Assembly: GCF_017349355.1 (NCBI RefSeq)
Contig: NZ_JAFMPM010000006.1
Span: 310,001 to 374,000 of the forward strand
Length of the DNA stretch: 64,000 nt
Direction: 5' to 3'
Source of the DNA: Thiothrix fructosivorans
GTDB lineage: Bacteria; Pseudomonadota; Gammaproteobacteria; Thiotrichales; Thiotrichaceae
In this document: positions 17,217 through 53,214 of the stretch, one piece after another
Numbering within the stretch: the first letter of the stretch is position 1
How the letters are laid out: each line of letters begins with the position of its first letter
The notes under the pieces: model-generated
The model's input: the letters and a program-made list of their open reading frames with translations, nothing else
Told to the model about the DNA's origin: nothing
The model's database searches: none
Translations under genes and position numbers: made by a program

Positions 17217-17648
17217 CTAGTAAGTTTTTACCCAGCAGCCATCCCACGTACCTTTGCCGCCACCACTGGTATCACAATGCGCAAAATGATCGTAATGAAT
17301 TTCGCACTTGTTTTGCACCCAATAGCCATTTTCACTCCAGCCACCGTAAGGGGTCGAAATATATTCAACGCCTTTGCAGTTGTGGTTCACTTCACAAGCC
17401 AATCGACAAATATCGAAACCCACGTCATAGACCGCATAACCCTTATCGTCCTGCACCCAACCGTGCGACCCGTGAGTACGCCAACCGCCATAACCCTTAT
17501 CAGACCAACGTAGCGGGTCAGAATAACCATGCCCACTGGTTGTGTAAGCGGATGCCCCCGTGTCTCGCCCATCGGCTACCGTTATCGAAGCGCTCAAGCA
17601 CAACACCAACGCGATGACTGGTTTTATCGTTGCAATAATGTATTTCAT
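17217..17648 (-). CDS. Secreted cysteine-rich protein, PAN/apple-like
   Basis: A 143-residue protein with an N-terminal signal peptide (VIALVLCLSASITVADG) and a mature part rich in Gly, Trp and Tyr. Conserved-looking cysteines (DICRLACEVNHNCKGVEY, then NKCEIHYDHFAHC and DGCW) resemble the spacing of PAN/apple domains, which bind proteins or carbohydrates outside the cell. This resemblance is a judgement by eye. AAGGAGGATC stands upstream of ATG 17648. It lies between the tnpB element and a response-regulator gene, so it may be an output or partner of that signalling pair. Confidence 0.65.
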   Translation of the reverse strand: MKYIIATIKPVIALVLCLSASITVADGRDTGASAYTTSGHGYSDPLRWSDKGYGGWRTHGSHGWVQDDKGYAVYDVGFDICRLACEVNHNCKGVEYISTPYGGWSENGYWVQNKCEIHYDHFAHCDTSGGGKGTWDGCWVKTY

Positions 17649-49187: not shown

Positions 49188-50198
49188 TCAGAATTCCGCT
49201 TTCAGGTCGCGGGAAAGCAGTTCAGCGACAGCCTGCCGAGGCGGCAGTTGTTCGTACAGAATACGGTAAACTTGTTGGCAAATGGGCATTTCAACACTGG
49301 CACGTTCCGCCAACTTGCCGATGGAAAGTGCAGATTTTGCACCCTCGACTGCTTGCCCGATTTCCGCAATCGCGGTATCACGGTCTTTGCCTTGCCCTAA
49401 AGCTAATCCTAAACGGCGATTGCGGGATTGGTTATCGGTGCAGGTCAACACCAAATCACCCACACCCGCCAAGCCCATCAAGGTTTCGGATTGTGCGCCC
49501 AGCTTCACGCCCAAGCGCATGATTTCCGCCAAGCCACGCGTCACGATAGCAACGCGGGCATTCGCACCGAAGCCTAAGCCATCCGAGATACCTGCCGCAA
49601 TTGCCAGCACATTTTTGAGCGCACCGCCCAATTCCACGCCCACCACATCATTGCTGATGTAAGCACGGTAATTAGCCGCTTGGAACGCGGCCGCCATCGC
49701 CTGTGCCAACGCAGGTTGATTCGCCGCAACGGTCATCGCCGTTGGCAAACCACGCGCCACTTCCCCCGCAAACGTAGGCCCTGACACCACCCCGTAAGCA
49801 GCACATTGTGGCAATACTTCCTCCAAAACCTGATGCAACAATTTACCTGTATCCAGTTCCAAACCTTTGGTTGCCCAGATAACCGCATCCTGTGCCGTTA
49901 ATAACGGGGCAAGGTTTTGCAATAGACTGCGGAAACCGTGACTTGGCACTACAATCAGGTGGTAGTCAGAGGATGCAGCGACCGTGGCTAAGTCACTCTC
50001 GCAACGCAAATTATCAGGAAACGGGATACCGGGTAGGTAATGCGTATTCTCACGCTGGCGATTCAACGCCTCAACGTGGGCAGGATTGAAATCCCACAGC
50101 AGCACATCCAGCCCATTTCGCGCCAATTGCAACGCTAACGCCGTTCCCCACGAACCCGCGCCATAAACAGCAATGGACTGGATGCGCTGGCTGGTCAT
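49188..50198 (-). CDS. gpsA: Glycerol-3-phosphate dehydrogenase [NAD(P)+]
   Basis: GpsA reduces dihydroxyacetone phosphate to glycerol-3-phosphate for phospholipid synthesis. The 336-residue enzyme has the Rossmann motif VYGAGSWGTALALQLA, ATKGLELDTGKLL, SGPTFAGEVARGLPTA, and the catalytic-Lys region GALKNVLAIAAGI. The start overlaps the secB stop by ATGA, so translation is coupled; secB-gpsA is a conserved pair. Confidence 0.96.
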   Translation of the reverse strand: MTSQRIQSIAVYGAGSWGTALALQLARNGLDVLLWDFNPAHVEALNRQRENTHYLPGIPFPDNLRCESDLATVAASSDYHLIVVPSHGFRSLLQNLAPLLTAQDAVIWATKGLELDTGKLLHQVLEEVLPQCAAYGVVSGPTFAGEVARGLPTAMTVAANQPALAQAMAAAFQAANYRAYISNDVVGVELGGALKNVLAIAAGISDGLGFGANARVAIVTRGLAEIMRLGVKLGAQSETLMGLAGVGDLVLTCTDNQSRNRRLGLALGQGKDRDTAIAEIGQAVEGAKSALSIGKLAERASVEMPICQQVYRILYEQLPPRQAVAELLSRDLKAEF

Positions 50199-50644
50199 GC
50201 CACGCCAGCTTTTGCTTGCTCTTCCTGTAAACGCCGTGCGTACAACGCATCGAAATTAATCGGGGAAAGATGCAGTTCGGGGAAGCTACCCTTGGACACC
50301 ATGCCTGCGATCACTTCACGTGCATACGGGAACAGGATATTCGGGCAATAAGCCGCCAATAAATGATTGAGCTGATCTGCGCCATAGCCTTGAATAAAGA
50401 ACACACCAGCTTGTTTCACCTCCACCAAGAAAGCGGTTTTATCATCACTTTTAACCGTGATGGTGATAAACAGCTCAACTTCATAGTTGTCATTCGCTAG
50501 TGGGTTAACCTTGGTATTCAAGTCCAAATTGGTATTGGGATTCCACTCTTGGGTAAAAATGCCGGGTGAATTGGGTGCTTCAAAGGAGACATCCTTGACG
50601 TAAATACGCTGGATGATGAATTGTTGCTCTTGTTGTTCGCTCAT
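50195..50644 (-). CDS. secB: Protein-export chaperone SecB
   Basis: SecB keeps preproteins unfolded and delivers them to SecA. The 149-residue protein has the typical EQQFIIQRIYVKDVSFEAPN start, an acidic beta-sheet core, and the conserved FPYAREVIAGMVSKGSFPELHLSPINFDALY (residues ~105-135). It lies between grxC and gpsA, the usual neighbourhood in gammaproteobacteria. Confidence 0.97.
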   Translation of the reverse strand: MSEQQEQQFIIQRIYVKDVSFEAPNSPGIFTQEWNPNTNLDLNTKVNPLANDNYEVELFITITVKSDDKTAFLVEVKQAGVFFIQGYGADQLNHLLAAYCPNILFPYAREVIAGMVSKGSFPELHLSPINFDALYARRLQEEQAKAGVA

Positions 50645-50680: not shown

Positions 50681-50947
50681 TTAAGATTCAAATAGCAAAG
50701 CGTCCAGTTTACCTGCACGATCCAATGCCGCCATATCATCATAGCCACCGATAGATAAATCGCCAATGAATATTTGCGGCACGGTGTCGCGTTGACTCAA
50801 GCGTTCCATCTCTGCCCACAACGTGGCATCACCACCAACATTGATTTCTTCGTAGGCAACCCCCTTACGCTTGAGCAGCATTCGGGCGCGTAAGCAGTAA
50901 GGACAAAATAACGTGGCATACATGCGCACCGGACGGGCTGGATTCAT
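50681..50947 (-). CDS. grxC: Glutaredoxin 3
   Basis: An 88-residue dithiol glutaredoxin with active site CPYC at residues ~14-17 (TLFCPYCLRARMLL), a cis-Pro loop (DTVPQIFIGD) and the glutathione-binding SIGGYDDMAALD. It reduces disulfides and mixed glutathione disulfides. It overlaps the rhodanese gene by ATGA and precedes secB. Confidence 0.95.
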   Translation of the reverse strand: MNPARPVRMYATLFCPYCLRARMLLKRKGVAYEEINVGGDATLWAEMERLSQRDTVPQIFIGDLSIGGYDDMAALDRAGKLDALLFES

Positions 50948-51369
50948 CGTTTGCTAACCGGAAGGTTGGCTGACTCCCATGCCGTGATGCCGCCCGCCAA
51001 ATTACTGACATTCTCGAAACCGGCTTTGGTCAATAGGTCACAAGCATGGGAAGAACGGCTACCACTGCGGCAATACACTAGCACTGGTTTAGTTTTAGCA
51101 GATTCCAGTTCAACCAAACGCGTTTTGATCTGCGCCAAAGGAATATGCTTTGCACCCTTGATCTTGCCGCTGCGCACTTCGCTGTCTTCACGCACATCGA
51201 TGACGACAGCCGTGTCTTGATTGAAAATTTGCACCGCTTGCGTGGTGTTGACTTGTTGGTATTTGCGGGTGATGCGACTGAATTCAGTCCAGATAATCAT
51301 GCCAACGATACCAAACAGCCCTGCAATTAACAGGGGATTGTTACGGGCAAAAACAAGATACTCTTCCAC
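50944..51369 (-). CDS. Membrane-anchored rhodanese-like protein
   Basis: A 141-residue protein with an N-terminal membrane helix (NPLLIAGLFGIVGMIIWTEF) and a rhodanese domain with the persulfide-forming Cys in LVYCRSGSRSSHA. It may move sulfane sulfur or act as a sulfurtransferase at the membrane; related YibN proteins precede grxC-secB in gammaproteobacteria. The start is GTG 51369. First gene of the run rhodanese-grxC-secB-gpsA. Confidence 0.9.
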   Translation of the reverse strand: MEEYLVFARNNPLLIAGLFGIVGMIIWTEFSRITRKYQQVNTTQAVQIFNQDTAVVIDVREDSEVRSGKIKGAKHIPLAQIKTRLVELESAKTKPVLVYCRSGSRSSHACDLLTKAGFENVSNLAGGITAWESANLPVSKR

Positions 51370-51470: not shown

Positions 51471-51815
51471 TCAGTGTGGAGCGGAGCAAAAGACTTCCTG
51501 CATCATGCTGATCAAGCGTAGTGTACGATAATCACCCACACGATAATAAACGCGATTAGCATCCTTACGTGAGGCCAAAATACCTTTATCACGCAAAATC
51601 GCCAGATGCTGAGAAATATTGCTTTGGGAAGTACCAACGTTGTCAACGATGTCTTGTACGCTGACTTCTTTGTCACCTAGAACACACAGAATTTTCAGAC
51701 GCAATGGATGTGAAATCGCTTTTAAGGAACGGGAAGCACGGTCAATGTCTTCTTCCTTGACCAACATATCATCAATACTGAAGTCACACGTACTGCCGAG
51801 AGCGATGCTACCCAT
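51471..51815 (-). CDS. ArsR-family repressor with SqrR/BigR-type cysteines
   Basis: A 114-residue winged-helix regulator (ISHPLRLKILCVLGDKEVSV, QSNISQHLAILRDKGIL, RVYYRV). ATG 51815 is supported by TGAGGA upstream; the frame extends further left without a good site. Counting from there, cysteines fall at 10, 44 and 110. The 44/110 pair is 66 residues apart, the same spacing as Cys41/Cys107 of the persulfide sensor SqrR, and lies in the same helices. It probably senses reactive sulfur species and derepresses sulfur genes. It diverges from envC and precedes the rhodanese operon. Confidence 0.85.
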   Translation of the reverse strand: MGSIALGSTCDFSIDDMLVKEEDIDRASRSLKAISHPLRLKILCVLGDKEVSVQDIVDNVGTSQSNISQHLAILRDKGILASRKDANRVYYRVGDYRTLRLISMMQEVFCSAPH

Positions 51816-51993
51816 AGATGTCCTCATCGAAAATGATTTTGCTAAAGCAACCTGTAAAGCTTCGCGCTGTGGAGCAGGCAACCTTAGTATATTAGTATAG
51901 ACAGAAACAATAATATACCCTATTCCATTCCGTGTCATCCCTTTCTTATGGTAGACTTCTGATTATCATAAATACCCAGAACCCTGACGCACG

Positions 51994-53214
51994 GTGAAAT
52001 TTTATCTATCTCTATTGCTGTTAGTCCCACTACTGTGGAGCGCGTCCTATGCAGCGGATACGCAGAAGCAACAGCAACTCCAACGTGACATTCGTCAGCT
52101 ATCCAATAGCCTTAGCACCCAAAAAGGCGAATCCAAGGAATTGCAGGAAGAAGTCACCCTGCTGGAAAAAAAACTCGGCGATATTTCTGACAAGCATTAT
52201 CAAACCGAAAAAAAAGCCGAAGCCACTCTAAGCAAGCTGGAAGAATCTGCCCGCAAACAAACCCAGCTTGATGCTGAATTAGCTGCCCAAAAATCGGGGC
52301 TTGCCCAACAACTGCAAGCACTTTACACCGCTGGCGAACAATCCCATCTGCGTCTGCTGCTGCGTCAAGATGAACCCTCTGACATTAGCCGCACTATCCG
52401 CTATTTTGAATACCTGAATGAGAATCGCGTGGGACGCATCCAAGCGGTGCAAAAAACCCTGAAAGACATTGATGCCACCCGCCTTGCCATCGAGAACGAC
52501 AATACCGAACTACGAGCGCTCAACAAAACGCTTGAGCAACAAAAAGTGGAAATGGAAAGCACCCTCAAAGCACGCTCCACCGCCCTTGGCACACTCAAAG
52601 GCGATATTCGTGTCAAAGAAAAACAACTTGGCAAACTAAAAGCCGAAGAAGCCAACCTACAAACAGTTGTTGATCGTTTAGCGCGTAAAGCAGAAGAAAA
52701 AGCCACCACCGAGAAAGTCCCTAAAGCCACCGAAACGCTCGAAAAGCCCGTTAATACCAGTAAAAAAGCTGCTTCCGAAACAGAGCGTAGCGAACCTGTC
52801 AAAACCCGCTTTACCCCCAACCAAGCGTTATCCACCTTGCGCGGACAATTGTCTTGGCCGGTACAAGGTAAAATCATCCACAGCTACGGTTCATCCCGTA
52901 ACGAAAAACAACGCTGGCGCGGTGTCGTATTAGCCGCCGCCGGTGGCACAAAAGTCCGCGCCATTGCCAGAGGGCGGGTCGCCTTTTCCGGCTGGATGGA
53001 TGGCTATGGACACTTAATTATTATCGAACATGACAATAATTACATGAGCTTGTACGGCTATAACCGTGCCGTTTACAAAAAAGAAGGGGCAATCGTCAAC
53101 GCTAACGAAACCATTGCCGCCGTAGGGAACTCTAGCGGTCAAAGCCAAGATGCACTCTACTTCGAGATACGGCAGGGTACATCCCCGCAAAACCCAGCAC
53201 GTTGGTGTCGCTAA
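51994..53214 (+). CDS. envC: EnvC-like murein hydrolase activator
   Basis: A 406-residue periplasmic protein with a signal peptide (LSLLLLVPLLWSASYA), a long coiled coil (residues ~22-250) and a C-terminal LytM/M23-fold domain. Zinc-binding residues of active M23 enzymes appear lost (HSYGSSRN where HxxxD is expected, YFEIR where HxH is expected), as in EnvC, which activates amidases AmiA/AmiB at the septum instead of cutting murein itself. The start is GTG 51994. It is followed by a C-terminal processing protease, the common envC-ctp order. Confidence 0.9.
   Translation: MKFYLSLLLLVPLLWSASYAADTQKQQQLQRDIRQLSNSLSTQKGESKELQEEVTLLEKKLGDISDKHYQTEKKAEATLSKLEESARKQTQLDAELAAQKSGLAQQLQALYTAGEQSHLRLLLRQDEPSDISRTIRYFEYLNENRVGRIQAVQKTLKDIDATRLAIENDNTELRALNKTLEQQKVEMESTLKARSTALGTLKGDIRVKEKQLGKLKAEEANLQTVVDRLARKAEEKATTEKVPKATETLEKPVNTSKKAASETERSEPVKTRFTPNQALSTLRGQLSWPVQGKIIHSYGSSRNEKQRWRGVVLAAAGGTKVRAIARGRVAFSGWMDGYGHLIIIEHDNNYMSLYGYNRAVYKKEGAIVNANETIAAVGNSSGQSQDALYFEIRQGTSPQNPARWCR

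Follow-up and report, generated by a model that had tools for sequence, protein, structure and literature searches.

An ArsR-type repressor with the cysteine pair of persulfide sensors next to yibN in Thiothrix fructosivorans, a probable local sulfane-sulfur switch

What does the ArsR-type repressor that is encoded beside rhodanese and glutaredoxin genes in Thiothrix fructosivorans respond to, and which genes does it control? The locus lies in a stretch of 64,000 nucleotides of the genome (contig NZ_JAFMPM010000006.1, positions 310,001 to 374,000), hereafter the window. An initial annotation took the gene (arsR) to encode a likely persulfide-sensing dithiol repressor whose operator may lie in the divergent gap to an envC-like gene, and suggested that it may be a main switch for reduced-sulfur use. 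The former view is supported, by inference from the cysteines of the protein, from a rhodanese gene that is adjacent in 78 of the 80 loci compared, and from a repeat in the gap. The latter is not, and the repressor probably serves as a local sulfane-sulfur switch that represses arsR-yibN(-grxC), its own gene included, comparable to ygaV-ygaP of Escherichia coli.

The 114-amino-acid protein scored above the cut-off of Pfam HTH_5 (ArsR, PF01022), and its best sequence match in the PDB was BigR of Xylella fastidiosa (3e-16), followed by SqrR of Rhodobacter capsulatus (4e-15) and by E. coli YgaV and Vibrio cholerae HlyU (both ~2e-14). Cys44 and Cys110 were aligned opposite cysteines in all four of these proteins, which agrees with the SqrR/BigR dithiol positions that had been proposed for them. 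The 66-residue spacing of the pair, also noted before, is correct and equals that of Cys50/Cys116 in Hyphomicrobium denitrificans sHdrR (PMC12423496). The AlphaFold model of the repressor (mean predicted local distance difference test score, pLDDT, 80; residues 1-15 below 50) contained helices at residues 21-34, 37-46, 53-60, and 64-76, then a wing, and then a helix at 96-109. Cys44 is located within helix 2 and Cys110 right after helix 5. The best structural neighbour of the model was HlyU (Z 16.3, root-mean-square deviation 1.4, 92 residues), followed by SqrR (Z 15.5). When the repressor sequence was read with the helix limits of the model, the features of metal-sensing ArsR/SmtB proteins were absent, i.e., there was neither a CXC motif in helix 3 nor Asp/His in helix 5, which we take to be the metal ligand positions in this family.

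In its fold, cysteine pair, lack of a metal site, and adjacency to a rhodanese gene, the repressor resembles the persulfide sensors of the ArsR family. Its identity to four members of "SSN cluster 4" (SqrR, BigR, YgaV, and HlyU) was 31-40%, close to the published network's 40% (PMC10509353). A tree of 77 short sequences, with long branches and few columns, placed the same four proteins together to one side of a branch supported at 98/97. SqrR shares both aligned cysteines with the repressor and is 40% identical to it over 85 residues, but it is separated from the Thiothrix group by this branch, and its targets are sulfide-oxidation genes, which differs from our reading of the Thiothrix protein. 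BigR likewise has both cysteines; however, its identity is 31%, and no dioxygenase-sulfurtransferase gene was present beside arsR in the window. Assignment to the BigR equivalog (NCBIfam NF040642) was rejected because the score was 74.2 bits against a cut-off of 155. HlyU, which is 37% identical and has both cysteines, differs in that it activates another gene set (PMC10509353). H. denitrificans sHdrR and SoxR belong to the same ArsR subfamily and have the same cysteine spacing, whereas they control sulfur-oxidation genes; this likeness is taken from the published description (PMC12423496).

The closest parallel in gene arrangement is YgaV, also an ArsR protein with cysteines in helices 2 and 5 that is encoded directly upstream of a rhodanese gene. 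YgaV represses the ygaVP operon, in which ygaP encodes a rhodanese, and so forms a negative feedback loop (PMC9774250), as is proposed here for the Thiothrix repressor. On the other hand, YgaV is 39% identical to the Thiothrix repressor over 87 residues and resides in another locus. In addition, YgaV influences genes of anaerobic respiration, and no counterpart to this was seen for the Thiothrix repressor.

In an even draw of 369 gammaproteobacterial genomes, 183 contained an orthologue (E ≤ 1e-25), and none had a best match between 1e-20 and 1e-25. Identity was 92-97% within the genus and ~49-88% in the other gammaproteobacterial genomes that were counted as orthologous. Carriers among the best 80 of the matches listed included Thiothrix, Thiolinea, Thioalkalivibrio, Ectothiorhodospira, Thiorhodospira, Thiohalobacter, Cocleimonas, and symbionts of the tubeworm Lamellibrachia, and the orthologue was present even in genomes of 1.0-1.1 Mb. 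Cysteines were scored in 177 of the 183 orthologues, the six left out (G077, G217, G324, G333, G344, and G359) all being from genomes with soxB and/or dsrA. Cys44 was conserved in every orthologue scored (177/177) and Cys110 in 171; both cysteines were also found in all 135 rows of another set, which contains duplicates. We regard the protein as a putative persulfide sensor of the ArsR family that is so far uncharacterised and belongs to a separate, widely conserved group of orthologues. Within the open-licence literature, no study of this ArsR gene was found and no paper brought together ArsR, YibN, and SecB; the only match for Thiothrix, ArsR regulators, and sulfur oxidation concerned Hyphomicrobium SoxR.

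The host genome (4.36 Mb) encodes five ArsR proteins above the Pfam cut-off, among which, by inspection of the sequences, this protein is alone in carrying the cysteine pair of helices 2 and 5. The other four are a protein with a CVC motif, two rhodanese-fused proteins without the helix-2 cysteine (the rhodanese domain was confirmed in one of them), and a paralogue. The two fusions are very similar to each other and are located at ~1379 kb of G000:C8 (L004) and at ~24.6 kb of G000:C4 (L005), one of them on a 154-kb contig. The paralogue (L156:6689-7003; G000:C8, ~974.7 kb) is 57% identical to the repressor, retains the helix-2 cysteine, lacks that of helix 5, and by eye adjoins peptide-transporter and polyhydroxyalkanoate (PHA)-synthase-like genes. 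Second copies of the repressor, with 57-63% identity, occur in 11/16 genomes of the genus. Furthermore, a third cysteine near the disordered N-terminus, Cys10, is common in Thiotrichaceae (L006-L025 and related loci) and mostly absent elsewhere.

The sequence upstream of arsR suggests where the repressor may bind. The repeat that had been pointed out in the gap to envC, TAGTATATTAGTATA at 51885-51899, is present and proved to belong to a larger inverted repeat of 32 bp, of which it forms one half; this larger repeat is conserved in the genus and overlaps the probable promoter (Table 1). In 16 aligned upstream regions from Thiothrix and its family, 19 of the 22 invariant columns were inside this repeat. 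Sigma-70-like pairs were no commoner in the region than in shuffled sequences (2 seen vs. 3.0 expected) and are weak evidence by themselves; the support for the promoter-like pair therefore comes from its conservation, the ATGACA/GTGACA hexamer being retained in the Thiothrix rows of the alignment. An inverted repeat that overlaps the predicted promoter in this way has the geometry of a repressor placed over its own promoter. A longer frame of 155 amino acids that begins with the ATG at 51938 is unlikely, since a stop codon closely precedes the 114-amino-acid start in several orthologues; this ATG falls within the -35-like hexamer.

A related element was recovered across the class. An unsupervised motif search in 126 upstream regions, to which 177 had been reduced by similarity and length, yielded a 20-bp element whose likelihood gain was 502; two shuffled sets, which were run with fewer starts than the real set, gave 75 and 72. 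The element could be extended to TATTATTGTATAATGTTTT..TAATA, although conservation of the flanks was weak, and 79 of the 84 confident copies faced arsR, not envC.

The genes around arsR were compared in the best 80 loci among the matches listed, several of which were cut by contig ends. yibN, which encodes a membrane-type rhodanese, was the most constant neighbour (78), followed by secB (73), gpsA (71), a divergent envC (70), ctpA (67), and grxC (43); in 49 further loci of the class, yibN was downstream of arsR in 37. Many loci had space for an extra gene between envC and arsR, which in the one checked (L063) encodes independent phosphoglycerate mutase (gpmI). These results indicate that the neighbourhood is old and largely housekeeping, with the rhodanese gene as its most constant but not obligate partner. 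The earlier description of the neighbours as genes that handle sulfane sulfur and glutathione is correct with respect to the rhodanese, glutaredoxin 3, and a glutathione synthase gene farther along in the window, whereas the order yibN-grxC-secB-gpsA is ordinary across the class (80 loci) and is also that of E. coli. A sulfur-globule-type gene that had been placed 12 kb away could not be confirmed, as the window has a D12 DNA methylase gene at 39-40 kb and a class II aldolase gene at 63-64 kb. The only sulfur-globule-like candidate noticed was an open reading frame at 17220-17648, 34 kb off, which is Gly/Tyr-rich, begins with a signal-like segment, and matched no Pfam family.

Table 1. Features of the arsR locus, in positions of the window; fractions refer to the best 80 loci.
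Feature	Positions	Strand	Basis or remark
ArsR-type repressor, 114 amino acids, Cys10/Cys44/Cys110	51471..51815	(-)	Open reading frame, Pfam, PDB sequence matches, model
yibN-type rhodanese, N-terminal hydrophobic stretch	50944..51369	(-)	101 bp downstream of arsR; adjacent in 78/80 loci
grxC, glutaredoxin 3	50681..50947	(-)	Above TIGR02181 cut-off
secB	50195..50644	(-)	Conserved neighbour, 73/80 loci
gpsA	49188..50198	(-)	Conserved neighbour, 71/80 loci
32-bp inverted repeat GTATATTA-N16-TAATATAC, probable operator	51887..51918	(-)	Only perfect copy in genome; conserved columns
Promoter-like site facing arsR: ATGACA, 17 bp, TATTAT	51910..51938	(-)	TATTAT (51915-51910) inside left arm of repeat
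envC-like M23 peptidase gene, divergent	51994..53214	(+)	Peptidase_M23; EnvC equivalog model 229 of 270 bits

In characterised relatives, a tetrasulfide forms between the equivalent cysteines within one protomer and the protein is released from DNA (PMC12423496; PMC10509353). By analogy with these relatives and with YgaV, the Thiothrix repressor most likely represses arsR-yibN(-grxC) and would be released by sulfane sulfur that is sensed by Cys44 and Cys110. A homodimer of the ArsR fold would occupy the promoter-overlapping inverted repeat upstream of its own gene and would hold the expression of arsR-yibN(-grxC) low. Sulfane sulfur, in the form of glutathione persulfide or polysulfide, would then link Cys44 to Cys110 as a polysulfide within the protomer, and the bridged repressor would leave the DNA. 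The rhodanese YibN and glutaredoxin 3 would consequently increase and may carry or reduce the sulfane sulfur.

Several observations on the locus, on sites elsewhere in the genomes, and on gene co-occurrence weigh against this local switch. In some soxB-bearing sulfur oxidisers (L207, L209, and L211-L214), diverged orthologues adjoin a ctpA-like gene without yibN (by eye). Co-transcription of arsR and yibN is unproven because of the 101 bp between them, and the class-wide element was found with confidence in only 84 of the 126 upstream regions. The metal sensor CzrA was a nearly equal structural match (Z 15.0 vs. 15.5 for SqrR), so that the fold alone does not decide the ligand. The match to CzrA would also suit a repressor that serves a housekeeping role, at its own locus or at gpmI/envC, in response to a non-sulfur signal and with structural or metal-binding cysteines, as would the housekeeping character of the neighbourhood, including gpmI in L063, and the retention of the gene in genomes without soxB and dsrA. 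Such a role appears quite unlikely in view of the absence of metal ligands from helices 3 and 5, at the positions assumed above, and of the direction of the element, which faces arsR in nearly all confident cases. Relatives outside the class, described below, keep arsR-yibN without Cys44 and have other invariant cysteines, which suggests a thiol rather than a structural function.

The observations on sites elsewhere concern the extent of the regulon. With up to three mismatches, the inverted-repeat pattern had 15 sites in the host genome compared with 12 for the control; the sole perfect copy was that at arsR, and none of the sites was at soxB or dsrA. By eye, one of the 14 other sites was 13 bp from a thioredoxin/ResA-like gene, and the remainder, at mixed genes, had no evident link to sulfur. 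In 20 genomes that were picked for a strong element at arsR, the class-wide element likewise had its best copies there (8/8 perfect and 10/11 one-mismatch sites). A further point against a purely local role is that these genomes contained 16 sites with one or two mismatches away from arsR, compared with 2 for the control, and this excess makes extra targets possible. Ten of the 16 were inspected for neighbours, the remaining six having no locus, and were mostly at unrelated genes or within genes. One two-mismatch copy was ~0.5 kb before a GloB-like metallo-hydrolase gene (L344:2003-2806, G193), and another, at a distance of 3.6 kb from soxB, adjoined an antitoxin gene (L342; G325:C62, 13.3 kb); each may be an extra target or a chance occurrence.

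The initial annotation's main switch for reduced-sulfur use corresponds to a global regulator of sulfur oxidation (sox, dsr, and others) that would employ the same chemistry on many targets. The presence of an orthologue in 114/118 genomes with dsrA and in 137/152 genomes with soxB, together with the excess of weak sites, one of them in the vicinity of soxB, is in line with this explanation. Nevertheless, it is improbable, given that the sites in the host genome were at control level and missed both soxB and dsrA, that the extra sites inspected were mostly at unrelated genes, that the element faces arsR, and that the orthologue is also found in 35 genomes with neither gene. A broad sulfur regulon under the repressor is not supported, and further or more degenerate operators elsewhere are possible.

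Co-occurrence with sulfur-oxidation genes bears on the local switch in both directions. soxB was detected in 152 of the 369 class genomes (148 above the curated cut-off) and dsrA in 118 (112 above). The orthologue was present in 148/165 genomes with soxB and/or dsrA and in 35/204 with neither (odds ratio 42), counts that ignore common descent. No joint loss of arsR and soxB/dsrA was seen in the 16 variable families tabulated (listed genomes only), and families f3 and f145 showed the opposite pattern. Cys110 was kept in 141/142 orthologues from genomes with soxB and/or dsrA, compared with 30/35 from genomes with neither (Fisher p 0.0012). The five losses in the latter group were spread over three families, in two of which soxB-bearing siblings retain Cys110 (G123; G155 and G270), and the sole loss in a soxB genome was in the weakest-scoring orthologue (G378). 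Other conserved columns were likewise more variable in genomes without soxB and dsrA (L74 in 9/35, E50 in 5, I56 in 5, and L38 in 4), and 30 of these 35 orthologues still have both cysteines. This retention of the pair, as well as the glutaredoxin 3 gene in the host locus, could be explained by a general thiol-redox switch on the same operon, in which a Cys44-Cys110 disulfide would form in response to disulfide, peroxide, or electrophile stress with no preference for sulfane sulfur. We consider this explanation unlikely, because the gene adjoins a rhodanese gene and five of the six Cys110 losses occurred where soxB and dsrA are lacking.

When 299 genomes were drawn evenly from the phylum, 45 of those outside the class had a homologue (E ≤ 1e-20). 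In all 29 loci examined (L162-L170 and L354-L373), which were chosen from the better matches, Cys44 was replaced and Cys30, Cys96, and Cys110 were present; yibN was downstream of arsR in 27 of them. These relatives are presumably Magnetococcia, an identification that we take from one genome (G406). A wider interpretation of the sulfane-sulfur switch, which we hold tentatively and regard as somewhat doubtful, is that arsR-yibN is an ancient, mostly vertically inherited unit that is core to the sulfur oxidisers among the Gammaproteobacteria and persists even in genomes as small as ~1 Mb. The helix-5 cysteine would decay once a lineage abandons sulfur oxidation, and outside the class (probably in Magnetococcia) the cysteines would have moved to positions 30, 96, and 110, with none at 44, as a natural rewiring of the sensor site.

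If the proposed local switch is correct, the displaced cysteines found outside the class would offer a natural way to test the thiol geometry that persulfide sensors need. Many sulfur oxidisers would carry a sensor of sulfane sulfur that is highly conserved yet unstudied, and for which a single clear target promoter is predicted. Sulfur sensing in these bacteria would thus become directly testable, and YibN, to our knowledge a rhodanese without an established substrate, would gain a physiological context.
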